Source: Megamerina dolium
Taxonomy: Eukaryota; Arthropoda; Insecta; Diptera; Megamerinidae
Reading direction: 5' to 3'
Assembly: GCA_963854835.1 (NCBI GenBank)
Contig: OY978525.1
Span: 64,512,907 to 64,576,906 of the forward strand
DNA length: 64,000 nucleotides
The position numbers and the translations under genes were made by a program. The notes below the pieces were generated by a model. That model saw only the letters and a list, made by a program, of their open reading frames with translations, did not search any database and was not told the origin of the DNA. Shown here piece by piece: positions 20,681-57,778 of the stretch (the first letter of the stretch is position 1; each line of letters opens with the position of its first letter).

Positions 20681-20896
20681 CAAACATATTTAAACCTTTT
20701 TTTTTTGTAATTTTTATAAAAAATAACGATAAAAATGTTAGAATAGTAATATTCTAGGGGCATGTCCCGACACTCTCCCGGAATATCATTATCTTAAAAC
20801 CTAATAATGATATAAATATTAAAAATAACATCTCTAAAAATGTTTCTTTCAGAGACCGTGAACATAGTTCACATATTTACAAAGGCAACCAATTAC

Positions 20897-21734
20897 TTAC
20901 TTATGAGGCCATAACAACCGAATATCGATTTAGGCCGAATATAACATGCTTCGCCACCCAGCTTTGTTCTTCGGTAGCTGGCGCCAGTTAGAAATTCCAA
21001 GTGCCGTCAGGTTCTCCAGTACTTGGTCTTTCCACCGAAGGTTAGGTCTTCCTCTTTTGCGTCGTCCTCCAGCGGGTTCCTAATATAACACCTTCTTAGC
21101 TGGAGCTTGTTCTTCCATTCGCTCGACAAGACCTAGCCAGCGCAGCCGCTGGATTTTCATGCGCTTTACTATGTCAATATCGGCATACACCTCGTACAGC
21201 TCATGGTTGTACCTTATTCGGTACTCGCCACCAACGCAAATAGGTCCAAAGATCTTGCGTAGGACTTTTCTCTCGAAAACTCCAAGCATTCGCTCATCCG
21301 AGGTGGAAATTGTCCAGGCTTCACCGCCATATGTGAGGACAGGGATGATGAGAGACTTGTAGAGTGTAGTTTTCGTTCTTCGAGAGAGAGCTCGACTTCT
21401 CAATTGCTTACTTAGCCCAAATTAGCATCTGTTTGCAAGAGTGATCCTTCGCAATATCTCCAGGCTGACGTCATTACTGCTGTTAATGCTGGTTCCAAGA
21501 TAGACAAAGTCCCTTACTACTTCAAAAGCGTAGTTGTCAACAGTGACGTGCTGTCCAAGACGCCTGGACTCTTTGTTTGTTGACACTAGATACTTCGTCT
21601 TGCCCTCGTTCACCGTATGACCCATCCGACGCGACTCTTTTTCTAACTCTGAGAATGCTGCACTGACTACTCGCGGGTTCATGCCGATTATGTCAATATC
21701 GTCGGCATACGCTAACAGCATGACACTTTTGTTG
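20897..21734 (-). mobile_element. RTE-clade LINE, 5'-truncated copy
   Basis: Minus-strand 3' end of the RTE element that is almost complete at 39878-43167. It is flanked by aaggcaaccaattac (20882-20896) and aaggcaacccattac (21735-21749), a 15-bp duplication with one mismatch. The 3' end finishes in ataagtaagtaa-like sequence. The 5' truncation falls at the YADD block. Confidence 0.85.
21065..21721 (-). pseudogene. RTE ORF C-terminal part
   Basis: Begins at LLAYADDIDIIG, the catalytic block of the RT (21721 downward), and runs through SELEKESRRMGHTVNEGKTK and FVYLGTSINSSNDVSLEI to a stop at 21422. After a frameshift it continues with ALSRRTKTTLYKSLIIPVLT, an RLRWLGLVERMEEQAPAKK segment and KKVLY before a stop at 21080. 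It lacks the endonuclease and the first half of RT. It retains 10 bases that the longer copy lost, so it helps reconstruct the element's history. Confidence 0.75.
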
Positions 21735-21827
21735 AAGGCAACCCATTACAAAAGTAATTATAAATGATTTACAATTGGTTTATAAAAACAGCGTTCTGAA
21801 AAAACGGGCGTTCCTAAAGGATCTCAA

Positions 21828-21908
21828 AAAGTTCTTTGTGGATTCGAACCAACAAAATTATTGCTTGTTAATGGTTCTCCACCCTTAACCAACTCAGCTA
21901 AAGATTCA
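21828..21908 (-). tRNA. tRNA-like pol III unit (degenerate)
   Basis: On the minus strand an A box (tagctgagttgg, 21889-21900) and a perfect B box (ggttcgaatcc, 21840-21850) stand at tRNA spacing, and a run of five T follows (21826-21830 reversed). The acceptor stem pairs only partly (about four or five of seven) and the T stem three of five. The anticodon stem does not fold cleanly, so no isotype is assigned. It lies inside the Maverick remnant, next to a hairpin element. Most likely a decayed tRNA or tRNA-derived sequence. Confidence 0.35.
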
Positions 21909-21939
21909 CTTTGCGAATGGTTGATAAAGTCAACATAGA

Positions 21940-22239
21940 TTCATATCTTCATCACATTTAAAGTTGAGTACTTTGATTGCACCAGCAAAATTAGAAATGA
22001 AAATGCTAAAAATAGTTCAAGCTTTTTAAAAGCTTTTCAAGTACTTTTGGAATCCGGGTGATTCATATTTATAGAAGTTGCATTCAAACAGATTTTTGGA
22101 TGAACCATAACGATCGACACCGATCGAAACAAAATTATTCAGCAATTTACTTAACGGAGCTTTACTGACGTTGATTTTTAGTTTTTTTACATGTTTCTAA
22201 TGGAAACGGCTCACCTCGCGAATATAATTTTCACAAATT
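21940..22239. other. Maverick-internal spacer
   Basis: AT-rich; no ORF recognised. Lies downstream of the integrase on its strand. Confidence 0.3.
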
Positions 22240-23060
22240 AAAATAAATAATTAATTTTCTTGAACAGTTTTTTGTAGTTCATTATAAAATTTACCTAAAA
22301 TTGGTTCATAATTTAAATCTCTCTGATATAAAATATTTCATGAGTCCAATTATTTTTATATTTGTTTTTAAATGGTTTTTTATGTGATTGTATTCGTACT
22401 TGTATCATTAATTTTAAAAACAGGTTTTTCTAAATGTTCGCGAAGCGAACGGTTGATTTCGGAAATATGTTCACTTTGTGAACCATTTCCTTTGGAAAAG
22501 TGTTCACTTTGTGAGCAATTTCCTTTGGAAATATGGTATTAATTAAATAACCTATTAAAAACTTCTTGTTCATTTTTTTCATTCACTTCACAAGGCCTCA
22601 TATCAATTGTTTTATACATGTCTTTAAAATTATATTCATACAACAATTTATCAATTACATTAACTCAATTAATATTTTGTTGAATTTGAAATTGTACTTT
22701 CAATTTTTCATTAATTGTTCTATTAAATCTTTCTACAATTGCAAATCTCTTTTCACTAAATGTTTGATACATTTGAATCTCATGTTTATTTAAAACTTCC
22801 TGAAAATGTTTATTTAAAAATTCTTTACCAGAGTCTGTATGAAGTAATTTTGGTGCACAACCAGCTCTTTTAATAATTTTTAAAAACGCTTCAGTTGTAC
22901 TATTCCCATCTTTCTTTTTTAATGGCTCTAAATAGGCAAATTTCGTAAGTGTATCAATTACTTTAAGCATATATTTGTATCCTCTATTAATTCTTACATT
23001 AACAGTTGTCAAAATAAATCAGCCGCCCATAATTCTTTTATTCCTTTAGTAATTATTTTT
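22240..23060 (-). pseudogene. Maverick retroviral-type integrase (rve)
   Basis: Reads from GIKELWAADLF (about 23050, shifted frame) into the 22665-23012 frame. The DDE triad is visible: Asp in VIDTLTKFAYLEPL, Asp in LHTDSGKEFLN and Glu in AIVERFNRTINEK. After a stop the frame continues (YEYNFKDMYKTIDMRPCEVN, NEQEVFNRLF) to a C-terminal NWTHEIFYI segment near 22340. Just before that come three in-frame 11-residue repeats of the type FPKE-x-V-H-K-V-N-x, encoded by the hairpin array at 22436-22532. Integrases of this type insert Maverick DNA. At least one frameshift and one stop; triad intact. Confidence 0.75.
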
Positions 23061-23099
23061 CTTATTTCAAAATTTTTTTAAATTGGTTTAAGCAATTCT

Positions 23100-23951
23100 T
23101 TTGCTAAAATTGAAGATCTTCAAGCAATTATTCAAACATTAAATTAATCACTTTTTAATAGCAATTATTTAATTGATGGATTAAATAGTTTAAAAGAAGA
23201 TTTAAATATAACTTTTCATCAAATAATTATTTAAAATCAATCGATAAGTATGGAAAATTAAATGTTGAAAAATATTTTGAAAAACACAATTACTTCGACC
23301 TGAAATAAAAAAATTTGCCCCTGTTAAAGATAATTTAGAAAAATTACAATCTGATTTTACTAAATTATTACCTGTTTTCGAGGGAAACCGTTCGCTTTGC
23401 GAACATACTTCCACTCTTCCAAAGTTAAATCAAGACAGTTCAATCTTAGAAAGCCCAAAACCACAATCTAGTCCTAAAAATAAAGATATATTTGTTACAC
23501 CATCAAGATTTAAAACAGCAAAACCGTTTGTTGAAATCACACGGAATTCTTCAGACAGAAGCGTACGTTAATGAAACATTATCAACTCCAGTAAATTTTG
23601 TTGAACATAGATTTGGAAATATGGCAATGAAATATTTAAATTTAAATTCTACTAATGCTAAAGTTAGTGATAATATATTTGGTATGGAAATCACTATTTC
23701 CATTCCACAAAATTAATGGTAATGATAGAATTATAAAATATAAACAATATGAAGGTACTAAAGGTTTATGGGAATTATTGCCTTTGAAAGATTCTTCTTC
23801 ATTCATACAAAATGATTTAGAAATTTATGAAGAAATTATTTTAACAACTTGTGCTTACATGCAAAATAATGATAAAACTACAAAAAGAATTAAATCAATT
23901 GCTAGTAATAACTATATTCATTTTATTAGACCAATGTTAATAAAAAATTAA
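23100..23951 (+). pseudogene. Maverick-type protein of unknown function (several frames)
   Basis: From about 23302 the frame reads RPEIKKFAPVKDNLEKLQ and KLLPVFEGNRSLCEHTS, the latter half encoded by the hairpin at 23374-23404, to a stop near 23570. A second frame gives FVEHRFGNMAMKYLNLN and NIFGMEI; a third gives NDRIIKYKQYEGTKGLWELL and FIQNDLEIYEEIILTT to the stop at 23951. The Y-x-GT-GLWELL followed by D-x-x-x-Y-E-E-I-L pattern is a recurrent feature of an uncharacterised Maverick/adintovirus-associated protein. No enzymatic motif. Broken by at least two frameshifts. Confidence 0.6.
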
Positions 23952-24197
23952 ATTCTAAAAGAAAAAACTGGAGCAGGAATTGAAAAAAATTTGTTTCCAA
24001 AAGAAACCAGTTACAAAGTAATTATAAAGTTTATACTAAATTTCTTGTTGAATATGTTTATTGGAATGATATTAATGAACTAAATGAAAGATTAATTTTG
24101 TTACTAGAAGAGCATGAAGCAGGAAATGATAGTCCTGAAATACATAACGAAATTATGAATATCATTGAAGCATTAATAGAAGATAATTTGATATAAC
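23952..24197 (+). pseudogene. C-terminal segment of the preceding Maverick protein
   Basis: After a hairpin (23993-24023, translated LFPKETSYK) the frame reads KFLVEYVYWNDINELNERLI, then LLEEHEAGND and NEIMNIIEALIEDNLI before a stop near 24196. The YW-D-NEL-RL-LL...AGN...NEI-IIEEL arrangement is a common C-terminus in Maverick-associated proteins of this type. Fused or separate status cannot be told because of frameshifts. Confidence 0.55.
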
Positions 24198-24291
24198 TTT
24201 GCGAGGCAAAAGAAATTGATTGTTTCGTAATCATCTTCACTTCGTGAACCGTTTCTCTTGGAAATATATTCGAAATTTTACTACTTAAATA

Positions 24292-24703
24292 AATGGGTAT
24301 AGATAAGTTTGGACAAAAAACTTTTTCAGAATTAAATTTTCCTAATGAATATTCTATTAATAGAATAATGTCAGTAGAAAAACTTTTCGAAGAATAACGT
24401 TTAAGTAGTGAAAAAGTTCTCAAAAATTTGAAAATGCATATTGAAGAAGTTTCTGAAGGAAATCAAAAATTTCGAGAATTTATAGAAAACCAAATTGATG
24501 AATTAGAAAAACTATTAAACAATAATAAGTCTGAAGTTATTGATTTAATTAAAAAACTGGAATTTATGGAAGACCATATTGAAAATTTTAAAATCAGTTT
24601 TCTAAAAAAACTTGATTGTTCAGAAAAACAAAATTTAATGCAAAAATATCTTAGTGATTTATCTTCACGAAGTGTAGAGTTAACAGAAAAAATATTAAAA
24701 TGA
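24292..24703 (+). pseudogene. Coiled-coil Maverick ORF
   Basis: MGIDKFGQKTFSELNFPNEY opens at 24292, stops near 24398, and the same frame resumes with a Lys/Glu-rich helix (EEVSEGNQKFREFIENQIDE, EKLLNNNKSEVIDLIKKLE) to the stop at 24701-24703. EVSEGNQKF is encoded by the hairpin-like segment at 24449-24479. Heptad-like L/I spacing suggests a coiled coil. I know no specific function. It lies between the preceding gene and the 3' end of polB. Confidence 0.5.
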
Positions 24704-25350
24704 TATGTCTCCTTTTGAGACCATCACCCTTGGTGATATGATTAATAAAGGCACTCAAGTTTCATCAGAGATGATGTTGGGAGCACGTTCTAATGATGAA
24801 GACCAAATGTAATTAAAAAATAATAAAAAAAAATTTCTATGTTAAGTGGGAGAAAAAAAATATATAGAAAAATTAAAAATGTTAAATAGAAAAAGTATAA
24901 ATCTTAATTTAAAATAACTTACAAACTAAAATTACTCGAATTTTCTAAGGTAATATCTATTAGCATATAAGTGAAGGGGTAAGGGGGTTCGTTTTATTAG
25001 CTACCTAATGTTCTGAGTGAGAACCATCACCTCTGGTGACGTACTTTTTATTTTGAAATGTCCTCAAGATAGTTTATAAATATTATTTAACTTATTTTCT
25101 TCATTATATTTGCGAAGAGAATCGTTTCCTTCAGAGACAAAATTACTTGTAAATTAGTTTCCTTCAGAGACATGCTGTAAACTATTAAAATGAAACTCAT
25201 CATCATAAGGTGATAATCCTATTTTATTTTCTTTTGTAGTATACAATGTCATATCATATGATGTAATATTACAAACAGTTTCAATTTTATTTTCTAAGTT
25301 AACTAAACAATTTTTATAATCTTCTATGGTTAACTTTTAAATATTATTTT
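24704..25350. other. Convergent intergenic region of the Maverick
   Basis: Non-coding, between the plus-strand ORF and the 3' end of polB. Contains four double-hairpin loci (24707, 25010, 25108 and 25157). Confidence 0.5.
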
Positions 25351-25353
25351 TCT

Positions 25354-27588
25354 TTATACCTTTACAAACTTTTTTCTCATCAACATCAGTTTTAAACGAA
25401 TACATTTTACTTCTAAGCCCACAAAATTCTCTATAGGAATTCGATTATATTCATCTTTAAATATTTCAGGTGTTTTCCTTTTATCGTTAGATTTAAGATC
25501 AGTAATAGGAAAATGATCTATAAATTCACTAGTATCATAAAGATGACTATCATTCTTCATAATGTCATAAATATCAAAATCATCACCAAAATGTGTACCT
25601 TCAAAATAAAAAATAAATGAATCAGTATCTGTACCTAATAACTTCATTCTATTTTCGAATTTATTCTTCAATTGAACGTACATTTTAAACATTAATAATT
25701 TTGGTAAATCTAAATATATAAAATATGGCTTTAGCCATGCTCCATGTCGGCATTTCATACCTCTATAAACTTTAGTTAAACTTACACCATTCTTTAAATA
25801 TTTTTTTAATAATCTAATATCAATTACATAATTTTTCTTTGGTAATAAAGTACACATTAGTTTCTTATTTTTTTTATGTGAACTGTGTTCACGGTTTCCT
25901 GAGGAAACATTTGATTTTTTTCCAACACCTTTCTCAATTAATTCTTTTTGAAGAGGAGATAACTCATTAGCGTAATCATTAAAGAAATCATGTAAATTAT
26001 CTAGTACATACATATCAACTTCTAAAGTGTATCCGGTATCACTTTCATCGTTATACTTTAAAATATTATTGACATTACAAAAGTATTTAATTTCATCTTC
26101 ATTTAACCACTTATGATCACCAATAATTAGCTTTTGACACATAGCCTATCTATATAAATTATTTGCATCTAAATATAAGATATAACTAGTTAATTTTTTA
26201 GGATCATCTATTCTATTTCTTTCAGCTTCTTCTTTACTTAATTTATAAACTTGTTCTACATCATCGTAATAATAGCAATTATTTGCTCTAGCATAATTAC
26301 GTGATATTTGAGATATTCCACTTCTAATTCCATTTTCTTCATATTCATACTGATCTTGATCAGTTAATAATCCTATTTTTTGTGTAGTTAATTTTAATAA
26401 TGTTGAATCACTTAAATATGGCGCACTTACATAATAAACAAGATCTAATTTATAATTTTCAAATTTTCACATTTCTCTAAAATTGTCATAAATATCTTAT
26501 AACAAAATAGCATATAATTTTAAATACCATTCATGATAATCTTTAAATGTTTTACAGTTAAAATGATTAAAAAATTTCTTTGCAAATTTATAATCTTTTT
26601 TACTAATATTACCATTTAATTTTAAGTAAAAATCTTCATATTGAGGAAATTGTGTTATATTTAATTTTTCATCATCATCAATAAATTCCTATGGACAAAC
26701 ACCTTATCTAAGGAAATAGCATTTATCTTCTTCAGAGACGTCTTTAAAAATATTAAAGTTTTTAAGATGATCAATATTAATTCGTTTTATATTTCTAGTA
26801 CTACATGATAAACACTTACTACTAGCTATGATTTTATAATTACTTTGTAATTGGTTTCCTTTGGAAACACAATTAATCATTTTATAAGATGAATAATAAA
26901 AGCTTCTAATTTTTTTACATTTAACACAATATACATTATTAACATCTAATAAATTTTTAACTGCTTTATCTAAAGACGTATTAATAAACTTCATAGAATC
27001 TATGAATCTTAATTCTATAGTTTCTTTTATCACATTCAATTTCAAGTTATTTGACTTACATTTATAACATTCTTTCCTTGCTACTTTATTGTATTCATAT
27101 CACTCATTATTTTTACATTTTAAATATTTAATTTCATCTACATACTGTTACTTTCTTTCTAATTTGTCTAAATTTTTCTGTACTTGTAGCTTTTAGCGTA
27201 GTTTCTGTTTGAGGATAAACAGATTTTAAATATTTTAAAAATAATTTAGAATCATAACCTTTTAAATTATGAATAATTGGTAAAAAAAATTAGGTATTTT
27301 CAAATTTAGATTACATTTATTGCATAAAGCCATTCTATATTTACCAGTTACGTGATCATGATCCCAACATTTATGAATTAAATCGTTAAACTCAATATTA
27401 CATGCCCGAATTTGTTGGGCGGTTTCGAAAGAGACGAAACATATTTCACAGTTTTTAGTATTTTCAAACTTTAATACAGATTCTCTATCTTGAATTATAT
27501 CAATATCACTTTTCCCTATTTTATTATATTCTTTAGCATGTTGTAATATATGATCAAAAAATACTTTAATTAAACCTTTTTTAGGTTT
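25354..27588 (-). pseudogene. Maverick protein-primed family B DNA polymerase, C-terminal part
   Basis: Minus strand, continuing from 36415 across the copia insertion. 27045-26704: VIKETIELRFIDSMKFINTS and SLDKAVKNLL. 26690-26150: DYKFAKKFFNHF, then KIGLLTDQDQYEYEENGI and YLDANNLY, the Asp-containing motif A. 26142-25354: GDHKWLNEDEIKYF, PKKNYVIDIRLLKKYLKNG, and GTDTDSFIF at about 25620-25640, the DTDS motif C. This polymerase type replicates Maverick DNA from a protein primer. In-frame hairpins occur at 25878-25908 (coding SSGNREHSSHK) and 26838-26868. Stops near 26150, 26500 and 26690 inactivate it. Confidence 0.75.
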
Positions 27589-27759
27589 TGTTGAAATGCA
27601 ATACTAAATACATCTCTGTGTAAAATTGCCAAAAAAGAAAAAACATACATACATATATTTATATATACGTGCTTAGCGCATTGACTTATTATAACTTAGT
27701 TTTTAGTTCTTAATAAACCGTACAACGCGAAACATATAAGCTGCGTTTCTTTGCTAACA
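27589..27759 (+). repeat. copia 5' LTR
   Basis: Starts tgttgaaatgcaatac and ends gctaaca. Contains a TATA-like tatatttatatata and, near the end, aataaa for polyadenylation. Confidence 0.9.
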
Positions 27760-27761
27760 TT

Positions 27762-27776
27762 GGTTATGGGCCCAGC
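27762..27776 (+). promoter_or_regulatory. copia primer-binding site (half-tRNA initiator Met)
   Basis: ggttatgggcccagc is complementary to the anticodon-loop region of fly initiator tRNA-Met, not its 3' end. Copia-group elements are known to prime from a tRNA-iMet half. Confidence 0.75.
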
Positions 27777-27926
27777 GTGAGCAGTTGGCTGGCGTTTGTT
27801 CGGTTTATAGTTTTGTGAATTCAAAATCGTTTGTCGATATCTAGTGTTCGTCGCTAAGTATTACGCGTGTGTCGCGACTGATTGAAACATAAAAAAAAAA
27901 ATCATTTAAATAAAGACGCAAACGAA

Positions 27927-29861
27927 ATGAGTTCGGCGGGACTTTACTCATTTGAGAAACTAAATGAAAATAACTATGCATCTTGGGCCATTCAGATGAA
28001 AAGTGTATTAATACACAATGAGCTCTGGCCAGTGATATCAGGGAATTTGAATGCAGGAACAACAGCAGATTCTAAGGCACAATTCGAAGCGAAAGACCAA
28101 AAGGCGTTAGCGACTATTATCTTGTGTCTTCATTCTTCGCAGCTGAATTATGTAAAATACAGTAAAACTTCGTTGGAAGCCTGGAATGCTCTTCGAGACA
28201 TTTACAATCGCAAGGGAGCAGCTCGGAAAGTGACCTTGTTTATACGGTTAATGTCATTGAAATTGCAAGAGGGTACAGTTATGTCTGCACATATAAATGA
28301 ATTTTCTGAAAGAGTTGATATGCTAGCAGAAATCGATACGAATTTACCAGAGGAGATTCTCTCTATAATTCTTTTATCCAGCTTGCCGGAAGCGTATGAC
28401 AATTTTGTTGTTGCAATCGAAGCAAGAGAAACATTTCCATCGTTGAATACATTAAAGGTAAAGCTTCTAGAGGAGGGCGAGCGAAGGCAAAGCAAGGGAG
28501 AAAATAATTCTAACGGTGAAAATCACGCATATTACGCATAAAAGAATGTAAAATGTTATTCGTGCGGTCGACGGCATTATGCAGCGGAATGCAGAAAGAA
28601 GAAGAAAGAGGAAAAGAAAGACGAAAATCAAAAGTTGTCTGTGTTAGTCGCAGCAGTAAATGAAAACAACAACTCAAATCGTAATTTGTGGTGCATTGAC
28701 AGTGGAGCAACAACACACATGAGTTGTGAAACTGAATTTTTTACATCGTTAATCGAAGTTCGCGAAAATGTTAGGCTTGCTGACAATAAGGTAGTAGAGG
28801 CGTGTGGTCGCGGTACAGTCAAAATAAAAATCGGTGAAAAGGTATTAGAAGCGGATGATGTACTGTATGTACCAGCACTACAAAATAATTTTATTTCGGT
28901 CAGTCGAATAACTAATGACGGTAGTTCAGTTATTTTTTCTAGTTCGGGCGCGATAATAAAAAATAAAAACGGGATTTTTGTAATAAAGGCAAAAAGAATT
29001 GGTGATCTTTATGCGTTTGAAGGTCAAGTAAATGAAAACGATAAAAATAAATGCAGTTTCGCGAGCAATACAAAAGACAATATTTTAAAGTGGCATAACC
29101 GTTTTGGTCACATTAATTTTGGTGCGCTTAAAGAAATGTCAAACAAGCAAACTGTACTTGGTTTAAACATTAAAGAAAAACAAGACAATTACGCGTGTAA
29201 GTCGTGTGCTCAGAGCAAAATTTGTGTTAAGCCATTTAAATCGTCGGAAAATCGGGCAGATGAACTTCTTGAAATTATTCACTCTGATTTGTGCGGGCCT
29301 ATGAACAAAAAATCGTTTTCGGGTTATCAATATTTCGCTACATTTATTGATGATAAATCGCGTTTTATTCGTTTACATCTTTTAAAAAACAAATCCGATA
29401 TTTTTGAAGCGTTTAAGTCGTTTAAAGCAAGCGTAGAGCGGGAAACCGGCAAGAAAATTAAAATTTTGCGTACCGATAACGGCAGAGAATACTTGAATAA
29501 AGTATTTGATGAATTTTTGGCTGAAAAGGGAATCAAAAGACAAACAACAGTGCCGTACACCCCTCAGCAAAATGGTGTGGCAGAAAGAGCCAATAGGACT
29601 TTGGTCGAAATGGCTAGGAGTATGCTTGTGTTTTCGGGATTAGACGAAGCGTATTGGGCGGAAGCAATCCTCACGGCAGCACACATACGAAACAGAGCAA
29701 CTCCAAAGATTCTAGTCGATAAAACACCATTTGAGGTATGGTATAAAAGAAAGCCGTCAGTGTCTTATTTTAGAACGTTTGGTTCACCAGCTATTGTGCT
29801 AGACAAGAAGGAAAAGCACAAGTCCAAAGGGGAGAGAAATGACGTTTGTTGGTTATTCTGA
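27927..29861 (+). pseudogene. copia Gag, protease and integrase (one internal stop)
   Basis: ATG at 27927. Gag: LYSFEKLNENNYASWAIQMK, then LLSSLPEAYDNFV; an in-frame TAA at 28539-28541 interrupts the otherwise continuous frame, just before the zinc knuckle CYSCGRRHYAAEC. Protease: CIDSGATTHMS near 28700. Integrase: WHNRFGH...CKSCAQSKIC zinc region, HSDLCGPM, RTDNGREY and QQNGVAERANRT, giving an intact DDE triad. The frame ends at 29861 after a 1-nt frameshift near 29835; the shifted frame continues with TFVGYSEQSKAYRL. Otherwise well preserved. Confidence 0.85.
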
Positions 29862-30699
29862 ACAATCAAAAGCGTATCGATTGGTCGAAAAAGACACAAA
29901 AAGAATTGTTAATAGTAGAGATGTGATTTTTTTGGAAGATATGATGGAGAAAACAAAATCTGAAATCGTACAAATAGAAGCTGAAATAGTCGAAAAAATG
30001 AAACAAAATCAAAGCAAGATTGCTGAAGAAGCAGAGAATGAAATTAGTGACTCTTCGGACGATGAGGTATTTGTCGATGACGAAAAGAGATCAACAAGCA
30101 AGGCAACTTCTTCCAATAGTATAGCGAGCAGCGCTCGAAGAGCAGGTGAAAGGCCGAGATTGCTACGAACGGGTAAACCAGGGCGTCCAAGAAAACGTTA
30201 CAATACGGTGGGCTTAGTAACAAATCAACATCAAGTCGAAGTACCACAGACTGTTAATGAAGCATTAAATGGTGAAAATATGCATGAATGGAAATCAGCA
30301 ATGGAGAAGGAGTACGAAGCATTGGTAGCAAACAATACGTGGTCGTTAGTCGATCTTTCGAAAGGTCAAAAGGCCTCCAAGACCCTTGGATGCCGTTGGG
30401 TCTTTAACGTAAAGAGAAGTAAGGATGGCGAAATCGATCGTTTCAAGGCGCGACTAGTTGCAAAAGGCTGTAGTCAGCAACAAGGCGTTAACTACAGTGA
30501 AACATTTTCTCCAGTAGTACGTTACGCTACCATACGGATGATTATTGCGTTAGCCGTTCAACACGAGTTATATTTGGACCAGATGGATGTCACAACAGCT
30601 TACTTGAATGGCGAACTTAGTGAGAATATTTATATGCAGCAACCCGAAGCGTTCACAAGCAGCGAATATCCAAATCACGTTTTGAAACGTGATATATAA
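29839..30699 (+). pseudogene. copia integrase C-terminus and RT, first part
   Basis: Starts FVGYSEQSKAYRLVEKD, passes an acidic linker (EISDSSDDEVFVDDE) and enters RT with GCRWVFNVKRSKDGEIDRFK, ARLVAKGCSQ and QMDVTTAYLNGEL, which carries the first RT aspartate. True copia coding stops at 30688, where the Jockey element begins; the last few codons are LINE sequence. Confidence 0.85.
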
Positions 30700-30759
30700 T
30701 ATATAATAATATAATAATAACATAATAATAACATAATTTGCAAACATTTTGTTTACAGT

Positions 30760-32373
30760 ATGAGTGTTCAGCGCTCTCCTCTCCGGCAACGGCAATCGCC
30801 TGTTAATGTGTGTGTAAACAATAATTTGCAGTCACCCGCGCAAACCCCCCCGATAAGTGCATTATCAAATAAAACAGTTGATACACACTGCACAAGTGAA
30901 AGTAACAGTGCAAATCTTTTGCCTGCACATATTAAAAATTCATCAAATTTTGCAACAACAATAAATACAGACAAAAAAAATAATTTGTTCTATCGTGATA
31001 TACTATCTCCCTCTATAACGTGGAGTGTACAATGTGCTTCTCCTGCTGTAACACCAACAGCTACAACATCAAAGCAATCAAATAACGGCACTTCTACTGA
31101 AGTGCATGACCCAGTAGTTAAAGCAACTAGTGCGATGACTAATAAAGAACCAGTTGCTGTTCAAACTGGTATTGATCGCTACATTACTGTAGTAAAGCGA
31201 AAGAGAAGTCCGCAAAATTCAAAACAAATGAATTCAACAAAAATTCAAAAACAGAACACTGTCCCTATTAGTTCGGAAAATAGATACGCTCTGCTTTCAG
31301 GTGATGAAAGTGACGAAAATATTATCTCCAAGAAAAATTTCAAACCCCCACCCATTTTCTTGAGAGAACGCAACTCAGATAAGTTGATTTCTAGAATTAC
31401 AAGTCATATAGGACCAAAGAATTTCCATGTTGTTTCTATTCGCAAAGGCCAAATTGAGGAAACAAAAGTGCAAATCTACAGCGAAACTCATTATCGCAAA
31501 GTAATAGCGGAATTTGATGCTGTAAAAAAGAATTACTACACATATCAGCTAAAAAGTAGTAAGGGCTTAATCGTTGTACTCAAAGGCGTCGAACCCAACG
31601 TTGATATTAACGAAATCAAACTTGCCCTCCAGGAAGAAGGGTTTCAAGCCAAAACAGTATTCAACATTCTCAACAAGAGCAATATACCTCAACCGTTATA
31701 TCGTATTGAGCTTCAGCCTGAAACAAAACCCCTAAAAAAAGGTGAAGTACACCCCATATATAAAATTCGATATTTATTGCATCGCAAAATCACAATCGAA
31801 GAACCCCATAAGAGAACTGGACCTCCTCAGTGCAGCAACTGCCAAGAATATGGACATACTAAGACATATTGTACCCTGCCAGCTGTTTGTGTGATTTGTG
31901 GAGATCTCCATAAATCAAACATATGCCCAAAATCTAAAGGCGATGCTAGCATGAAAAAATGCAGCAATTGTGGAGGTAATCACACCGCAAATTATAGAGG
32001 TTGCCCAGTATATACAACCCTAAAGCTAAATTTCTCCGCTAGCAATCAACCTCTAAAACCAGTTGAGCAAATTCAGATAGCCAACTCAAGTAAGAGACAA
32101 AATATTGATGCAACACAATTCTTCTCTGCAATCCCAAACAAGAATCAAACCAATTCATACGCTAGCGTGTTAAAACAAAACCCACAACAACAAAGCAATG
32201 TAAATAATGAGCAGAAACACTCACTGCCCACCCAACAACCAAGTACCCTTGAACATTTGCTTCAAACATTGATTCAGAATATGAACCAATTCATGAACTC
32301 AATGCAAACAATGATGCAAGAAATGATGAAAAATCAATCGATGTTACTCCAAACATTGCTATCCAGACCATGA
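30760..32373 (+). CDS. Jockey-type ORF1 protein (Gag-like, zinc knuckles)
   Basis: Intact 537-residue ORF. The N-terminal half is Ser/Thr/Asn-rich and disordered-looking. From about residue 195 there is an RNA-binding-like region (FHVVSIRKGQIEE, LKGVEPNVDINEIKLAL). Three CCHC-type knuckles follow near residues 358-430: CSNCQEYGHTKTYC, CVICGDLHKSNIC and CSNCGGNHTANYRGC. The C-terminus is Gln/Met-rich. ORF1 proteins of this clade bind element RNA and form the RNP. The stop overlaps the ORF2 start (ATGA at 32370-32373), the usual reinitiation arrangement. Confidence 0.9.
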   Translation: MSVQRSPLRQRQSPVNVCVNNNLQSPAQTPPISALSNKTVDTHCTSESNSANLLPAHIKNSSNFATTINTDKKNNLFYRDILSPSITWSVQCASPAVTPTATTSKQSNNGTSTEVHDPVVKATSAMTNKEPVAVQTGIDRYITVVKRKRSPQNSKQMNSTKIQKQNTVPISSENRYALLSGDESDENIISKKNFKPPPIFLRERNSDKLISRITSHIGPKNFHVVSIRKGQIEETKVQIYSETHYRKVIAEFDAVKKNYYTYQLKSSKGLIVVLKGVEPNVDINEIKLALQEEGFQAKTVFNILNKSNIPQPLYRIELQPETKPLKKGEVHPIYKIRYLLHRKITIEEPHKRTGPPQCSNCQEYGHTKTYCTLPAVCVICGDLHKSNICPKSKGDASMKKCSNCGGNHTANYRGCPVYTTLKLNFSASNQPLKPVEQIQIANSSKRQNIDATQFFSAIPNKNQTNSYASVLKQNPQQQSNVNNEQKHSLPTQQPSTLEHLLQTLIQNMNQFMNSMQTMMQEMMKNQSMLLQTLLSRP

Positions 32374-33146
32374 GTTGTCTCAAGATATGCCACTGGAACG
32401 CCAACGGCTTAAGCCACCACCGTTTGGAGCTAATTCAATTCCTTGAATCCAGCCAAATCGACATAATGATGATATCTGAGACCCATTTCACTGACAAAAA
32501 TTGCTACCAAATACCATATTACAAACTGTACACCACAAATCATCCGCATGGTAAGGCACGCGGAGGAACTGCCATATTGATAAAAAGCAGAATAAAACAT
32601 CATGTTCTTGAAGATTTTAGTAGCGTTTACTTGCAAGCAACATCTATATGTCTGGAAGAATACATCTCTAAGCTAGTAATATCTGCGATATACTGTCCCC
32701 CAAGATACAGTATTACCGAACAGCAATATAAAGAATTTTTCTCAACTCTTGGTAGCAAATTCTTGGTTGCTGGCGATTTCAACGCCAAACACACTCACTG
32801 GGGCTCCCGATTAATAACTCCAAAAGGTAAAAGACTATGTTCAATCATCACTAACCACGGCTACGATGTTATTTCAAATGGTCAACCGACATATTGGCCG
32901 ACGGACAAGAGGAAAATACCCGATCTCATAGACTTTGGAGTCGCCAAAGGTTTGCAGATGGAAAATATCTCCACAGAGTGTAATTATGATCTATCATCTG
33001 ACCACTCACCCACGGTAATATCTATAAAATCACCAAGCCCCCAAGGTAATTGCGTTAGAAAGAAAATAGACTGGTTAAAATTCAAGAAATATATAAATTC
33101 CCATCTTCCTCTGAGTACTGTATTAAGAAATGGACACGAGTGCTGA
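32370..33146 (+). pseudogene. Jockey-type ORF2, endonuclease part (ends at premature stop)
   Basis: MSCLKICHWNANGLSHHRLE opens an APE endonuclease with MMISETHFT (catalytic Glu), LVAGDFNAKHTHWGS (D-x-N), TYWPTDKRKIPDLIDF and LSSDHSPTVI (SDH). It ends at TGA 33144-33146 after GHEC. Comparison with the 45097-49130 copy shows that this stop was made by a local inversion at 33138-33153. All endonuclease motifs are intact. Confidence 0.85.
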
Positions 33147-33159
33147 GTCTACACAGCAC

Positions 33160-34846
33160 TCGAAAAATTCAACCAGCTGCTCTCATTAGCTCTCAGCTCA
33201 GCCACCTGCACAAAGGTATGCAAGCAATCAAACTATAGCCCATACACACCAGCCGATATTGAATTGCTAGTAAGACAGAAAAGAATTCAAATCGGCCAAT
33301 TCTCACTGATTCCCCCATCCGTTTGAGTGACGGTAATTGGGCTAGAAGCAACTGTGAGAAGGGTTTGGCTTTTGCAAACCACCTAAAAAGTGTGTTTACA
33401 CCCAATGCACCCTCTTCACAGTCCTCATTACCAATATTAACTTCTCAACCTTGCTCAATAACGCTCAAAATTAAAAAAAAGGACATATTCAAAGCAATTT
33501 ATAAAGATTTAAACCCAAAAAAATCACCTGGTCCGGATAAAGTTACCGGTAAAATGATAAAAGAGCTACCTCCGGCTTCAGTAATTCATCTCATGCACAT
33601 TTTCAATGCTATCCTTCGTATTAAACACTATCCCAAATGCTGGAAAACTTCAAAAATTATTATGATAGCAAAACCAGGAAAAGACCCTACAAAAGTTGCA
33701 TCGTACAGACCTATCAGCCTCCTGCCTCTACTTTCTAAAGTATTCGAAAAGCTACTTGTCATGAATATAACTCCATTTATTAATCTTAACCAACTGATTC
33801 CTCAACATCAGTTTGGATTTAGAAAACAGCACGGCACAATAGAACAAGTCCACCGCATTGTAACTCTGATAAGGAACACTTTTGAAGAAAAAAAGTATTG
33901 CTCAGCTGTCTTTCTTGATATCACTCAAGCTTTCGATAAAGTATGGCACGATGGCCTTATTTACAAACTCAAACTATTACTGCCTGCAAATGTCTCCTCA
34001 TTGCTTAGTAGCTACCTCACGAAAAGACAATTTCTCGTACATCACAAGGATTACACAACAAATCCATTGGATATTCACGCTGGCGTTCCTCAAGGAAGCG
34101 TTTTGGGTCCCTTACTGTATCTCTTATACACTTCAGATATGCCCAACAATAACTATACATTCATATCGACCTTTGCTGATGATACGGCAATATTGTGCTC
34201 TCGCTCTAACCCCATAGAAGCTACTAAACTCCTGCAGACTCATGTCGATTCTCTCGAAATCTGGCTAGCAAAATGGCGTATAAAAGTCAATGAATCAAAG
34301 AGCGTACATGTAACCTTCACGCTAAGGCTAGATACATGTCCCCCACTTAAAATTAATGGCCAATCAGTTCCACAATGTTCCTCAACAAAGTACTTGGGTA
34401 TTCACCTCGACAGAAGGCTGACATGGAAAAATCACATAGAGGCAAAGAAAACTCAGATCAAGCTTAAAATGAATCAGTTATGGTGGCTGTTACACAAAAG
34501 ATCAAAGTTGAATCTTGAATACAAAGTGCTATTATATAAAGCAATCCTGAAACCAATCTGGACTTATGGTATTCAGTTTTGGGGCACCGCATCTCCCTCT
34601 AATATCGAAAAATTGCAGCGAATACAATCCAAGTGTCTGCGAATTATTGTAAACGCGCCTTGGTATATGAGGAACGTTAACATCCATCGAGATTTAAATG
34701 TATCCACAATTTCTGAGGAAGTTGCAATGTCCTGCAGAAGCTACATTCAAAAATTACACAATCATCCGAATCCCCTTGCTAGGCAATTGTTGCTGAGCAA
34801 GGGGCATCGTCGATTAAAAAGAAAAGACACACTGAATATGCTGTAA
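33160..34846 (+). pseudogene. Jockey-type ORF2, linker and reverse transcriptase
   Basis: After the stop the linker resumes (TALEKFNQLLSLALS) and loses roughly 170 bp at about 33282, relative to the second copy, which changes the frame. RT is then open from 33323: KKSPGPDKVTGKMIKEL, ASYRPISLLPLLSKVFEKLL, VFLDITQAFDKVWHDGL, GVPQGSVLGPLLYLLYTSD and STFADDTAIL, with the FADD catalytic pair intact. It ends RRLKRKDTLNML at 34846. No RNase H domain. Confidence 0.85.
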
Positions 34847-35011
34847 AATTGCTACATCTCGCGACTCACCAAATTGTGATGGAACGTAGGGGATATCACA
34901 TAGTTTTATTTAGTTTGTAAGATTTTAATACTTATTGTTAGTTTCTTATATTTAAGAAAGATTCAATAAAAAAAAATAAGCTAACAAAAAAAAAAAAAAA
35001 AAAAAAAAAAA

Positions 35012-36123
35012 ACGTTTTGAAACTGCACAAAGCACTTTACGGTTTGAAGCAAAGCGGCCGTGAATGGAACAAGAAGCTGGGCGGTGTTTTGCGTAATATT
35101 GGGTTCATACCAGGTGAGAGCGATCCATGTGTCTATACGCGAAATGGGTCAAATACATATAATATCATTGCCGTATATGTTGATGACCTTTTATTTGCAA
35201 GTACTTCCAGAGATGAATTGAATGAGATAAAGGTACAAATTGCTAAATATTTTGATGTAGTCGATGGTGGCACCTTGACTCATTTCCTGGGTATGGAAAT
35301 GTGCAGAAAAGGCGCTACGGGTCCAGTTACTGTGTGTCAGCAACAATATATATTGGATCTATTGAAGCAATATGGTATGGATGAGTGCAAAGGGGCTTCA
35401 ACACCGTTACCACCGAACTTTCAAGTTAGTTGCAAGAGCGAGTGCTGCAAAAAGGTGGATGCTACTAACTATCAGTCTATAGTAGGGGCACTCATGTACT
35501 TGGGCTTGTCAACGAGACCAGATATCCTCCATTCGGTCACAAAATTAGCACAGTGCAACGTTGATCCACACACAGAGCATGAGGCAGCTTTAAAGCATAT
35601 CCTACGTTACTTAAAGCAAACTGTGTCCTACAAGCTGCATTATGTGAAATCACAGAAGCCAATCGAGGGTTTCGTAGATGCTGACTGGGCAGGTGATGAA
35701 ACTGACAGGAAATCGTTTACTGGGTACGCGTTCATCGTAGCCAATTGTGTTTTTTCATGGCAATCCCAGAAACAGAGCGTTGTTGCACTAAGCAGCACCG
35801 AAGCGGAATACATTGGCTTAACAGCAATAGGTAAAGAAGCCGAGTATTTACATAAGCTGCTGAAGGATATGGGTTTCAAGATGAATGAAGCGATGACTAT
35901 TCACAGCGATAACCAAAGCGCACAGCATCTCGTACGTAATCCAACTTACCATGCAAGGAGAAAGCACATAGATGTGCGATATCATTATATTCGGGAAATT
36001 TATAAAACTAACAAAATCAAATTGAATTATTTAGGCACTAATGAGATGATTGCCGACATACTAACCAAAAATGTACAGAGAATTAAGCACCAAAGGTTTG
36101 TTAGAGAAATGGGACTTTATTGA
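35012..36123 (+). pseudogene. copia RT second part and RNase H
   Basis: Continues the copia frame after the LINE: KLHKALYGLKQSGREWNKKL, then IIAVYVDDLLFAST (YVDD catalytic box), LGMEMCRKG, ALMYLGLSTRPDI and ADWAGDETDRKSFTGY. RNase H shows ALSSTEAEYIGL and a C-terminal DILTKNVQRIKHQRF. All catalytic motifs are intact; only the LINE insertion interrupts it. Confidence 0.9.
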
Positions 36124-36234
36124 AAAAAGGTAACATGAATTTTCCTTTTTGATTAACTTGTCTATTGAAATGAAGTACATATTGAAAATGAAATATTTAA
36201 AGAAAAATGTGAACACAGAGATATATCCTGAATT

Positions 36235-36243
36235 GAGGAGGAG
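36235..36243 (+). promoter_or_regulatory. copia polypurine tract
   Basis: gaggaggag lies directly before the 3' LTR; plus-strand DNA synthesis primer. Confidence 0.7.
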
Positions 36244-36414
36244 TGTTGAAATGCAATACTAAATACATCTCTGTGTAGAATTGTCAAAAAAGAAAAAACA
36301 TACATACATATATTTATATATACGTGCTTAGCGCATTGACTTATTGTAACTTAGTTTTTAGTTCTTAATAAACCGTACAACGCGAAACATATAAGCTGCG
36401 TTTCTTTGCTAACA
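36244..36414 (+). repeat. copia 3' LTR
   Basis: Same length as the 5' LTR, with three transitions between the two. Followed by Maverick polB sequence. Confidence 0.9.
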
Positions 36415-37300
36415 GATTTTACTGCTGAAAAATACTTTTTCGTATGTTCGTGAAGCGAACTATTTCCTTCAGAAATATATTCACTTTGGGAGTAGATTCT
36501 AAATCAGCATATAAAACATATGGATGAAATAATTCTGCACCGTTTGAATTATATTCTAAAATGTTTTGACCTTCTTTAGGTAACTATATATTGAAATATG
36601 TCGAAATATGTCAATAACATATTTTTTATGTTCTTCTAATTTATTTAAAGATTTACATTTCCTAAAACATTTATAACAAATATGTAAACGCTAATTTTGA
36701 TGGTGAATTTTACCATATATTTTATATTTATTTGTATCTTCTAAATATAAAATATTAATATGATGTTTATTAATATTAATATTAAAAGATTTACTTTTAT
36801 ACAATAATTGAATTTGTTTAATTGTATCTTTTTCTTCAGAATTGAAATAATAAAAGTTCATGGTGATATTCAAATAATTTCTTCTAATTTCTTAACATTT
36901 TCTTTATTAACTTCAATTGGATAAGTTATATTTAAGTTTTTAAAATTTTCATCATTTAACATGTCTTCAAAATATTTTTTATATTTAGTTGGTCTTTGTG
37001 GATCTTTAGTTATTTAATTTTGGTGTATACAATATAAGATACAATATAACACACAATAGCTGTCATAATTTTTAATATTTATACAATTTTTATTTGTGAA
37101 TGGAATATATGACCCATCTGAAATACGCTGACTTTTATCTCCTGAAACAATTGTTTTTACTATTTTTACAAACTCCCATCCAATTCCTGCTTTATTAATT
37201 CCATAAAAACTGTTACATAGTTCATCCATCATGATATCAAATTTCTGTTTAATATTTATTTTATTAATGTTATGTGTCTTAGACCGATACCAAAAGACCA
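36415..37300 (-). pseudogene. Maverick DNA polymerase B, N-terminal part
   Basis: Minus strand from about 37300: GIGWEFVKIVKTIVS, SDGSYIPFTNKNCINIKNYD and CVLYCILYCIH, the N-terminal domain of Maverick-type polB. Next come KYKKYFEDMLND and ITYPIEVNKENVKKLEE, then (36873-36691) INKHHINILYLED, and HPYVLYADLES at about 36495-36522, the exonuclease motif I. Directly after this motif the double-hairpin array 36446-36493 is translated in frame (TPKVNIFLKEIVRFTNI). The gene then breaks at the copia insertion and resumes at 27588. Several stops. Confidence 0.7.
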
Positions 37301-37442
37301 GATTCATTTCTCTTTTTCTCATTGGCGTGTTCTGGTTATCGTCTATTTCTTGTCGTTCGTATCGATGCTGCCAACATTCGTGTTATTCACAATAGTGCCA
37401 GTCACAATAATTATGAGTAACCAACCATCGATACTCGTTACA
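37290..37442 (-). repeat. LTR fragment related to the LTR at 62916-63343
   Basis: Shares long stretches with 63215-63343: ctcattggcgtgttctggtt against ctcgttggcttgttctggtt, gatgctgccaa, gatgagtaaccaac-like text, and the same end atactcgttaca. It lies between the polB N-terminus and sequence that may be its 5' region. Confidence 0.7.
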
Positions 37443-37820
37443 CTATTAAGATGTCGCTTTTTATGTTTCTGAAGAATTTCTTTACCACAGTCCCATACAA
37501 TCCTTTTATTTTTTTATGGTAATTTATTACGATATTTATATTTTTCATTAAAACATTATTTACACCATCCAGGGCGAACTGTACTATATTAATAATAATT
37601 ATGGTGTTAATAACATTTTAACACCATTAACTATACGATGATACAGTCTTTGTTTTTCTGGAACTTCTCCCATTTTAACTTTGCAGATTTATTACTAAAA
37701 TAATGTTATTTTTAAAGCTTTTTCCTTCGATACCATAAACGATTCGTTTCACTAATTATATTTTTGAAGAAAATCGTTTGGCAAAAGTCAAATAAGATTA
37801 TCAGTTCACTTCACGATCGT
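37443..37820. other. Maverick spacer or decayed coding DNA
   Basis: No certain ORF. A small palindrome, ggtgttaa...ttaacacc, lies near 37600-37623. Minus-strand text near 37670 (MGEVPEKQRLYHRIVNGV) might be the start of a gene but ends quickly. Confidence 0.25.
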
Positions 37821-38560
37821 TTAATCTAATTCTAATTTTTCATTTCTAAAATCAATTAAATTATTGTCTTGATCAACTATTGGAATATTTATATTTGTAA
37901 TTGTATTTGTATTTATAGGATAATAAATTAAATTTCTTGGTATCTCATTTATTTTTTCACCAGGTTTATCATCAATAAAAAATTCATGAATAATATTTAT
38001 TTGTCTATTATTCTCATAACTACCAGATGCAATATTACATTTTATTCTATTTGAATTACCATTCATAATATTTACTGGCAAATCTAATGAAACTAATGTA
38101 TTAGGTTAAATAATTTGTTTACTAAAACCCAATAAAGAAGCAATAGAATTTTCTTGTGTAAAGTCAATTGTATAATTACTTTTAATTTCAACTTTTAATG
38201 TTGTCATATTTGGTTTAATAACAATACCATCAATTCTTTCTTTAATAAAGTTATTTATTTCATTAATTTCATATGATCCTTCAGAGACAAATTCACTTCG
38301 TGAACCCTTTTCTTCGGAAATGTGTTCGCTTTGCTAACCGTTGACTATGTCAACCTGTGAACTGTGTTCCCGGTCTCTTTCAGAAATATAATGTAAAAAT
38401 TATTTTTTAACTTTTCAGATATATTTGGAATAGAATTAAAAGTAGAAAAATTAGGCAAGCACATTTCATAATTAGAGTTATCATTGAATTTTATTGGTTC
38501 GTCAAAATCGCAAGAAATTATTGATGAATTTTCATCTAATGAAATGGTGGCATTATTCAA
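37821..38560 (-). pseudogene. Maverick penton-like minor capsid protein
   Basis: Start at 38560: MNNATISLDENSSIISCDFD, then YEMCLPNFSTFNSIPNI, the N-terminal pattern of Maverick/adintovirus minor capsid (penton-like) proteins. It continues after the hairpin array with GSYEINEINNFIKERID, IKPNMTTLKVEI and IDFTQENSIASLLGFS. A stop near 38108 follows, then VNIMNGNSNRIKCNIASGSY and the C-terminal FFIDDKPGEKI, IPRNLIYYPINTNTITNI and LIDFRNEKLELD. Seven hairpins (38274-38387) sit between the NFYI and SYEI segments. Their frame is open except for one stop caused by a single arm substitution. Encodes a virion vertex protein by homology. Confidence 0.7.
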
Positions 38561-38599
38561 TTAAGTAAAAATTTTAAACAAAGATGACCACATGTAATT

Positions 38600-38880
38600 T
38601 CAAATATTTCTTGGTCAATATTATAATTAAAATTTTTTCATTGGATTTAAAATATTTTTCAACTAATATAGGTCATTTATTTAAAGCAAATCATAATATA
38701 CGATATAATTATTTTTATTTTTATATGCTATCCAATGAGTACCATTACCATTATTATCTAAATTTATTATTCCACATTCTATATCTTTTATCTTTTTTGG
38801 TAATCTACCTTTCATAAAAACACCTGTAAAATTTGGAATATTGAATTTTCTAGCATATTTTTAAAAATCATAATTACATT
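38600..38880 (-). pseudogene. Maverick adenain-like cysteine protease
   Basis: Pieces in shifted minus-strand frames: KFYRCFYERQITKK / NFTGVFMKGRLPKKIKDIEC near 38790-38850, IINLDNNGNGTHWIAYKNK near 38730-38780 and a following YYDLL. The GTHW-Y box holds the catalytic His of adenain/Ulp1-type virion maturation proteases. The C-terminal catalytic Cys region was not recognised. It lies immediately upstream of the penton-like gene on the same strand, as in other Mavericks. Frameshifted. Confidence 0.6.
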
Positions 38881-38885
38881 TTGTT

Positions 38886-39202
38886 TGCTGCTTGAGAGAC
38901 CATGGTCGCAGCCATTCTACCTACCTACTGTTTTATATGATAGTGATAGTTCTTTTTTTTTTTTTGGAATGTGTATTATTAAAAAAACTTATCAAATAAT
39001 GTTATATTAAATGTTTAGAGGATTTTAAAGAATTTGATTTTTTTATTTTATTTTAAAATTAATGCAAACTTACAGAACTTAAGGAATGTGATTTTTTATA
39101 TGTAATATTAGTGACTATTTGTCTACCTAGTTGTGAATAAAATTGTTTCTGTTCCTCCAAAATGACACAACTTATAAAGATGATGATGATAAAAGTCATA
39201 TA
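38886..39202. other. Spacer between Maverick and rosa copy A
   Basis: AT-rich with a T-run at 38953-38965. No ORF or repeat end recognised; the Maverick break must lie here. Confidence 0.3.
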
Positions 39203-39877
39203 TAAAGGGTTATGCATTTCGCGGTTTCAAAAGTATAGGGCTAGAATTCGACATCTGTCAAACTGAGTTGTTAAAACAATTTCTTTCTTTTTCAGTTCAA
39301 AGTCTGACATTTGCGAAAATGGATCGCTTAACTATCGCACAACGCATTAAAATTGTAAAAACCTACTACAAAAATGGTGATTCTGCCACAGCCACATATC
39401 GTGCTTTAAGAGGAGATTATGGTTTACATAATCGTCCAACTACGCAAGCAATTGGCAAAATTGTGAAGAAATATAAAGAGACTGGATCGGTTACAGATAT
39501 TGTAAGGCCTGTGCATCATCGTTTCGCTCGTACCACCGAAAATATCGCTGCTGTAAGTGAAAGTGTTGCCGAAGACCCGAATGTGTCGATTCCTCGTCGT
39601 TCTCAGGAATTAGGACTGTCTTACGGCACATTATGGCGTATTTTGCATTTGGATCTACACCTACATCCATATAAAATCCAGCTCACACAACAACTGAAGC
39701 CAGCTGACCATTCACAACGTCGTAGATACGTCGAATGGGTGCTTGAACAACAGGCGCTTTTTCGAACAAAATTTTCTTCAGCGACGAAGCACATTTCTCA
39801 CTCGGTGGGTATGTTAACAAACAAAATTGTCGTATTTGGGGTTCTGAGAATCCTCAAGTAATTGAAGAGAGGCCACT

Positions 39878-47416: not shown

Positions 47417-47466
47417 ACGGTGCTGGCTTAAGCCGTTGGCGTTCCAGTGTCATATCTTGAGACGAC

Positions 47467-49082: not shown

Positions 49083-49130
49083 ATTACAAACAAAATGTTT
49101 GCAAACTATATTATTATTATTTTTGTATTT

Positions 49131-57776: not shown

Positions 57777-57778
57777 TA

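Follow-up and report, generated by a model that had tools for sequence, protein, structure and literature searches.

Hairpin insertion elements with unexplained mobility are known from mitochondria and from Rickettsia, and the insect DNA viruses of the baculovirus group carry hr elements, palindromes of about 30 bp that are dispersed through the genome as intergenic origin or enhancer elements. The present analysis concerns short double-hairpin units in a decayed Maverick (Polinton), an integrated DNA virus, in the nuclear genome of the fly Megamerina dolium. The Maverick lies in a stretch of 64,000 nucleotides (nt) of assembly GCA_963854835.1 (contig OY978525.1, forward-strand positions 64,512,907 to 64,576,906), which is referred to here as the window and provides all coordinates below.

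Several described families come close to these units. The GC clusters of yeast mitochondria, such as GC42, are palindromic and flanked by direct repeats of AG or ACT (PMC4478555). The mitochondria of Allomyces have double-hairpin elements (Paquin 2000, as described in PMC2800124) for which mobility has been proposed and flanking duplications are reported to be absent; in sponge mitochondria short hairpins in tandem form double hairpins, a few of which are inserted in protein genes without a frameshift (PMC2800124). Rickettsia palindromic elements of 100-150 bp lie in open reading frames (ORFs) without destroying the frame (PMC3767692), and mitochondrial genes of Magnusiomyces capitatus carry short inserted blocks at many positions (PMC5009743).

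The Maverick units combine the shape, borders and coding habit of known families, each of which has a defining feature that these units lack. Like the yeast GC clusters they have short direct-repeat flanks, here AT, presumably duplicated, which borders 8 of the 14 sites at either end; likewise, changes concentrate in the loops of the yeast clusters, and the Maverick units keep their stems paired. The yeast clusters, however, are mitochondrial and mostly intergenic and measure 42 nt or other lengths, whereas the Maverick units reside in nuclear-integrated viral DNA, have two hairpins in 31 nt and often lie in open frames. The Allomyces elements share two adjacent hairpins (to judge by their name), dispersed copies and proposed mobility; they differ in being mitochondrial and reportedly free of flanking duplications, while AT at 22 of the 28 outer flanks suggests a duplication in the Maverick. 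Sponge elements likewise show tandem double hairpins, frame-neutral insertions in genes and complementary substitutions between copies, but they are mitochondrial, and the excerpt of PMC2800124 mentions neither a fixed 33-nt unit nor an AT border. Insertion into ORFs with the frame intact is shared with the Rickettsia elements (here in the polymerase gene polB at 25878, 26838 and 27404; exceptions in the Maverick are 25141 and 38324), although those belong to bacteria, Rickettsia or Wolbachia, are 100-150 bp long and differ in architecture from the 31-nt units, the comparison being one of descriptions. The Magnusiomyces blocks, which we take to be the elements called byps, disrupt frames and are made good in translation, whereas the Maverick inserts mostly keep the frame. 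The baculovirus hr elements, as generally described, are similar dispersed palindromes without AT-bordered 33-nt insertions in genes. Finally, the coding palindromes of Nematomorpha are also inverted repeats inside mitochondrial protein genes, but they reach 284 bp and both of their arms encode conserved protein (PMC6649704), whereas the Maverick units are additions to the conserved protein of their genes.

Architecture of the units and their confinement to the Maverick within the DNA searched

The window is AT-rich (35.5% GC) and dense in transposons. One decayed Maverick lies in it as two pieces, at about 20.8-27.6 kb and at about 36.4-38.9 kb; between them is a Copia-like element that itself contains a nested long interspersed nuclear element (LINE). 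The Maverick part comprises 8,522 bases, a LINE fragment at 20.9-21.7 kb being excluded, and the rest of the window 55,478 bases. The initial annotation called the host element a Maverick, which is borne out by a retrovirus-like integrase (rve) and by the relatives of a 263-aa polymerase piece, namely P0001 (53% identity over 45% of the query) and P0002, presumably protein-primed polB proteins. P0001 itself has 7309 relatives. The names capsid-like (minor capsid protein) and protease-like, used for two other genes, reflect resemblances that we presume and that database entries did not match: Pfam gave no match for these pieces, nor for the 263-aa polB piece, and scans of IMG/VR with the polB piece and with the capsid-like piece gave no relative. 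A single other Maverick, L002, was reached in IMG/VR through the polB alignment.

Each unit consists of two 15-nt palindromes joined by one base, as had been claimed from the start; in the 19 aligned units either palindrome is a hairpin with a 6-bp stem and a 3-nt loop. One hairpin usually has the stem GTTTCC and the other GTTCAC, GTTCGC, GTGAAC, AATTAC or ATCACC, with GTTGAC also present; the loops are AAA, GAA, TTC or TTT in 25 of 38 cases. The catalogue holds 19 well-formed units of 31 nt, spread over 14 sites, and a longer one at 27404-27440. Partial units were recognised by eye: one that a LINE interrupts, with portions at 20875-20896 and 21750-21759, a solitary hairpin at 36479-36493 and half hairpins at 24217-24231 and 38274-38288. 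The initial annotation had counted about 18 loci between 20842 and 38387, both between and inside genes; that extent and the placement relative to genes agree with the present catalogue.

The hairpin GTTTCCnnnGGAAAC, with at most two mismatches, occurs 13 times in the window against 2.15 expected from shuffles, and GTTCACnnnGTGAAC 9 times against 1.65; 2 of the 13 and 2 of the 9 matches fall outside the Maverick part. A scan for structure alone counted double 6-3-6 palindromes in which 10 or more of the 12 pairs form, with an optional cut at 25% GC or more. With the cut it gives 13 for the Maverick part against 1 for the remaining 55,478 bases; once the cut is lifted the numbers become 21 and 17, so that weak palindromes made of A and T alone are common throughout. 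At 11 or more pairs the Maverick holds 8 against 0 elsewhere with the cut, all 8 with a one-base spacer, and 9 against 1 without it. The spacing is fixed: around 44 strong Maverick palindromes a partner lies at -16 in 12 cases and at +16 in 16 (background 8%), and smaller peaks stand at -17 (8 of 44), -33 (10 of 44) and +33 (9 of 44). The 33-nt tandem period given in the initial annotation is confirmed by the partner offsets as well as by repeat detection.

The arms vary and yet stay paired. Because the units were picked partly for palindromy, the following values lean towards structure: standard pairs fill 87.7% of 228 pair cells (71.5% when shuffled, 35-47% in slid controls), both-sided changes occur at 10 of 12 pairs, where shuffles average 6.5, and covariation scores 0.511, as opposed to 0.205 after shuffling and no more than 0.170 in the slid controls. 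The initial annotation read the paired arms as a sign of selection or copying of structure; paired changes would, however, also follow if imperfect palindromes were repaired during replication. When folded as single-stranded DNA, four single units each form two hairpins (z -3.5 to -4.6); of two arrays, one gives a longer structure (z -5.6) and the other a poor fold (z -1.7).

The assembly has chromosome-sized contigs (C1 122.5 Mb, C2 95 Mb, C3 74 Mb, C4 73 Mb and C6 63 Mb). Host DNA was sampled as 25 stretches of 10 kb, or 250 kb, a small part of the genome; the first 24 stretches (240 kb) include 2,835 N. The host mitogenome contig of 16,674 bases encodes mitochondrial proteins that, in our reading, are from an insect. 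A covariance model of all 19 units recovers 14 of them at E <=5e-4, with scores of up to 43 bits; the remaining five all lie in tandem arrays, one being weak (E 0.95) and four unlisted. A further weak match within the Maverick, at 37758-37795 (20.9 bits, E 0.044), is left out of the counts. Outside the Maverick the best score of the model is 16.5 bits (E 0.39) in the window and 16.9 bits (E 1.2) in the 240 kb, and there is none up to E 5 in the further 10 kb of host DNA and the mitogenome. A held-out model, built from the 9 units at 20.8-24.3 kb and tested on the other 10, recovers four at E <=0.001 (25876, 26836, 36444 and 38322); outside the Maverick its best E is 3.7, except for 21726-21761 (E 1.6), a match that takes in the leftover portion of the unit cut by the LINE. 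The structure-only scan of the 240 kb yields 43 double palindromes with at least 25% GC, 4 of which have 11 or more pairs and none of these a one-base spacer. The restriction to Maverick DNA proposed in the initial annotation therefore holds in the window, the 25 host stretches and the mitogenome, and in the host DNA sampled the motif is infrequent. A mitochondrial origin was considered and rejected, with 0 matches in the 16,674 bases. A generalised scan shows only one AT-flanked double palindrome outside the Maverick, at 58155-58196, which departs from the units in length and stems and coincides in part with a tandem repeat.

Searches further afield gave little. Rfam has 0 family matches up to E 1 over 20800-38900, two exact unit patterns have 0 and 0 matches in prokaryote contigs, and a protein search with a translated array gave no candidate. 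Exact-pattern searches of viral contigs returned 0, 1, 1 and 0 matches. The viral match L001 fits a relaxed pattern but is solitary and lacks AT borders; it scores 19.1 bits, with an E of 0.027 that was computed within two loci after selection from the whole collection, and is taken as chance, as is L003, a single hairpin of 15.3 bits. In L002, the only other Maverick scanned, there are 0 units. Titles and abstract openings among the matches listed for Mavericks, Polintons and adintoviruses, a coverage that takes in few subscription papers, hold no description of such elements.

AT borders, net length and coding context

With the borders set by the hairpin ends, the 22 AT dinucleotides among 28 outer flanks compare with an AT frequency of 0.133 in this DNA. 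Dinucleotides taken 1-6 bases further out are AT at 0-4 of the 14 sites per side. The longer unit 27404-27440 was left out of the flank count and likewise has AT on both sides. Between the tandem units of three arrays the dinucleotides are AT, GT, AA, GT and CT. The AT flanks would represent a duplicated 2-bp target.

A unit with one AT measures 33 nt, or 11 codons, so its insertion preserves the reading frame; the longer unit with AT measures 39 nt. Units stand in open polB frames at 25878, 26838, 27404 and 36446. Other open frames hold three tandem units and, on the plus strand, the units at 23374 and 23993. The three tandem units (22436-22532) lie in ORF 22380-22538, which stays open through the array, has a stop codon just upstream and would belong to the integrase gene, after the rve domain. 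The longer unit is in frame in polB ORF 27262-27603, between a CxxC and an HNH-like motif. The GTTTCC-type hairpin usually begins at codon position 1, with 27404 and 36446, in our reading, in other phases. By phase, 15, 3 and 17 of the 19 units are free of stops on the A-first strand and 13, 12 and 9 on the other. The YADLE motif next to unit 36446 is presumably polB-exonuclease-like.

The polB homologues show what one site looks like without its unit. At 25878 the window protein has exactly 11 residues more than P0001, the nearest relative found. In an alignment of the window ORF with 121 homologues (P0002 and the top 120 of the 7309 relatives of P0001), 62 have letters at both anchors; between the anchors the window has 29 residues and P0001 18, and 61 of the 62 homologues have 14-18. 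The exception, P0059, has 48 residues, including a poly-Q-rich insert. The insertion place thus seems, from the alignment, to be a permissive loop. In a weak structure prediction for P0003 (mean predicted local distance difference test score 58.3), to be given little weight, residues 123-132, where the insertion falls, form a coil flanked by a helix and a strand. Across the 39-nt unit, the Endonuclease_7 profile aligns 57 window residues to 45 positions, a net gain of 12 against 13 expected; an HNH motif searched for in the 121 homologues, with a view to its spacing, matched none of them. The zinc-ribbon region around site 26838 has no good homologue as judged by eye. The initial annotation had weighed whether related Mavericks carry the hairpins as ordinary coding sequence; at 25878, the one well-testable site, the polB homologues lack the insert. 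In polB 26704-27099 (minus strand) an extra CxxC...CxxC stretch precedes a KGVYPY-like motif. By eye, it is missing in 29 of the 30 homologues listed; P0005 has a similar cysteine pair.

Origin of the units

Four features jointly point to an insertion element: the copies of one family are dispersed, their AT borders are sharp, the net length is constant, and homologues lack the insert. The units are thus probably a single family of very short, once mobile hairpin insertion elements, which proliferated within this lineage of Mavericks. A 31-nt copy would enter at an AT dinucleotide, with AT then on both sides and a net gain of 33 nt; copies inside genes would leave the frame intact and would persist where a loop or linker tolerates them. 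The copies presumably moved within the virus while the Maverick replicated. As a guess, strand-displacement replication by the protein-primed polymerase could expose single strands on which hairpins might be recognised and then copied or pasted. Tandem arrays could result from repeated insertion at a flanking AT, or from slippage. More tentatively, and as a proposal we hold with less than even confidence, Maverick viruses may carry a hyperparasite in the form of a double-hairpin transposon of 33 nt. It would make copies of itself at AT dinucleotides of the viral genome, probably while that genome replicates by protein-primed strand displacement, and its length of 11 codons would allow it to settle in the polymerase, integrase and capsid genes without disturbing their frames.

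Several observations weigh against the reading as insertion elements. The mean pairwise identity among the 19 units is 0.57, which does not support recent jumping. Six of the 28 flanks are not AT, each being one base off an AT, and AT, which is the same on both strands, may belong to the element instead of being a target duplication. Frame keeping is not universal: the pair at the C-terminal end of polB holds a stop (25141), and in the capsid-like array unit 38324 is open in no A-first phase and there is a frame change as well. In a decayed element, these exceptions may be later damage. The sole clean empty site is in protein homologues, with none obtained at the DNA level. The held-out model misses 5 of 10 units and finds one more only at E 0.09, and prokaryote contigs, viral contigs and one IMG/VR Maverick contain no convincing homologous unit.

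Among the rivals, one that is unlikely but survives best requires no mobility: one or a few palindromes would have multiplied locally by slippage or template switching, and hairpin-templated repair would keep the arms paired without selection or transposition. This agrees with the tandem arrays of 33-nt period, the paired double changes, the variable stems, the low overall identity and the modular mixing of hairpin types. However, slippage alone explains neither 14 dispersed sites with sharp AT borders over 8.5 kb of Maverick nor polB gains of about 11 and 13 residues relative to homologues or profile. It is quite unlikely that the units are cis-acting viral signals kept by selection, either origins or enhancers like the baculovirus hr elements or hairpin 3′-end signals. 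The palindromes are indeed dispersed, and several occur at the ends of genes and between the convergent genes at 24703-25171, but many others occupy open frames (two ORFs besides the integrase region and, in polB, the sites at 25.9, 26.8, 27.4 and 36.4 kb), where 3′-end signals would do harm, and AT borders with a frame-keeping length would be unexpected. The insertion-like borders would also fit units that belong to a repeat of the host genome and entered this Maverick by accident. That is highly improbable: neither the remaining 55 kb of the window, nor the mitogenome, nor the 250 kb of sampled host DNA, itself a small part of the genome, gives a significant match. Each of these three rivals covers a part of the evidence, but none accounts at once for confinement to the Maverick and for AT-bordered 33-nt gains within genes. 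Chance palindromes or ordinary coding sequence can practically be discarded: AT-rich DNA does yield weak palindromes everywhere (17 in the window outside the Maverick, and 43 with at least 25% GC in 240 kb of host DNA), but the enrichment, the fixed spacing, the covariation and the lack of the insert in homologous proteins contradict this reading.

Catalogue, neighbouring elements and implications

Units and Maverick genes in the window. Flanks are the dinucleotides beside the outer hairpin ends; bit scores of units are from the 19-unit covariance model, where a position denotes the match.
Feature	Coordinates	Strand	Remarks
Unit: hairpin A, C, hairpin B	20842..20872	+	AT both sides; 38.6 bits
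Tandem second unit, first part	20875..20896	+	interrupted by LINE fragment; putative remainder 21750-21759, then AT (as read from the sequence)
Unit, B-type and GTTGAC-type hairpins	21904..21934	-	flanks AG, AT; 35.2 bits
Unit A-G-B, second hairpin decayed (3 Watson-Crick and 1 wobble pair of 6)	22193..22223	+	AT both sides; 35.3 bits
Three-unit tandem array (22436, 22469, 22502; 33-nt period)	22436..22532	-	AT at outer ends; 22467, 42 bits
Maverick integrase core	22668..23018	-	rve PF00665, E 4.3e-12, 46.6 bits against cutoff 32.6
Unit in open ORF 23281-23571, hairpin start at codon position 1	23374..23404	+	flanks CT, AT; 38.5 bits
Unit with AATTAC-type second hairpin, in ORF 23984-24196	23993..24023	+	flanks TT, AT; 40.7 bits
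Unit between ORFs; half hairpin upstream at 24217-24231	24235..24265	-	AT both sides; 37.8 bits
Unit with ATCACC-type second hairpin, directly past stop of ORF 24398-24703	24707..24737	+	AT both sides; 35.4 bits
Unit, GTTCTG- and ATCACC-type hairpins, between convergent genes	25010..25040	+	flanks AT, GT; 29.7 bits
Two tandem units, polB 3′ end	25108..25171	-	AT at outer ends; 25106, 32.7 bits; register of unit 25108 chosen by us from two possible
Maverick polB piece, 263 aa	25354..26145	-	segment common to P0001 and P0002 missing here
Perfect unit (12/12 pairs) in polB ORF 25354-26145	25878..25908	-	AT both sides; 43 bits
Perfect unit, AATTAC-type hairpin; in frame within polB ORF 26704-27099	26838..26868	-	flanks AT, AC; 42.5 bits
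Longer unit, 17+1+19 = 37 nt (39 with one AT)	27404..27440	-	AT both sides; not matched by covariance model
Unit in open ORF 36419-36583, directly after YADLE motif	36446..36476	-	AT both sides; 37.9 bits
Single imperfect B-type hairpin (half unit), AT between it and unit 36446	36479..36493	-	
Three-unit tandem array (38291, 38324, 38357), half hairpin 38274-38288	38291..38387	-	in capsid-like gene; 38322, 33.0 bits

Other mobile elements have entered or surround the Maverick. A 3′ fragment of a LINE-type retrotransposon (20882-21749) sits inside a double-hairpin unit, and a 15-base sequence with one mismatch stands on both of its sides, like a target-site duplication. The Copia-like retrotransposon (27589-36414, nested LINE at 30.7-34.9 kb) is apparently inserted within the Maverick polB; its two ends, which resemble long terminal repeats, are flanked by GGTTT and GATTT. 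The same LINE occurs twice in inverted orientation, at 30705-34674 and 45090-49137, the copies being 88-99% alike over many segments. Two transposase copies at 39202-39882 and 57089-57779, also inverted and 97-99% alike, belong to a family that we take to be mariner-like, and the second has a 410-codon stop-to-stop frame.

If the units are once mobile elements, their size and borders make empty-site tests easy, for a predicted empty site lacks exactly 33 nt and keeps one AT. They also illustrate a route by which viral proteins can gain short in-frame peptides. With the same architecture present in a nuclear-integrated DNA virus that has a protein-primed polymerase, the mechanism may be tied to a way of replicating DNA instead of being an organellar trait. 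The proposed hyperparasite, if real, would rank with the smallest mobile elements that leave reading frames intact and would be, to our knowledge, the first one from a eukaryotic DNA virus.

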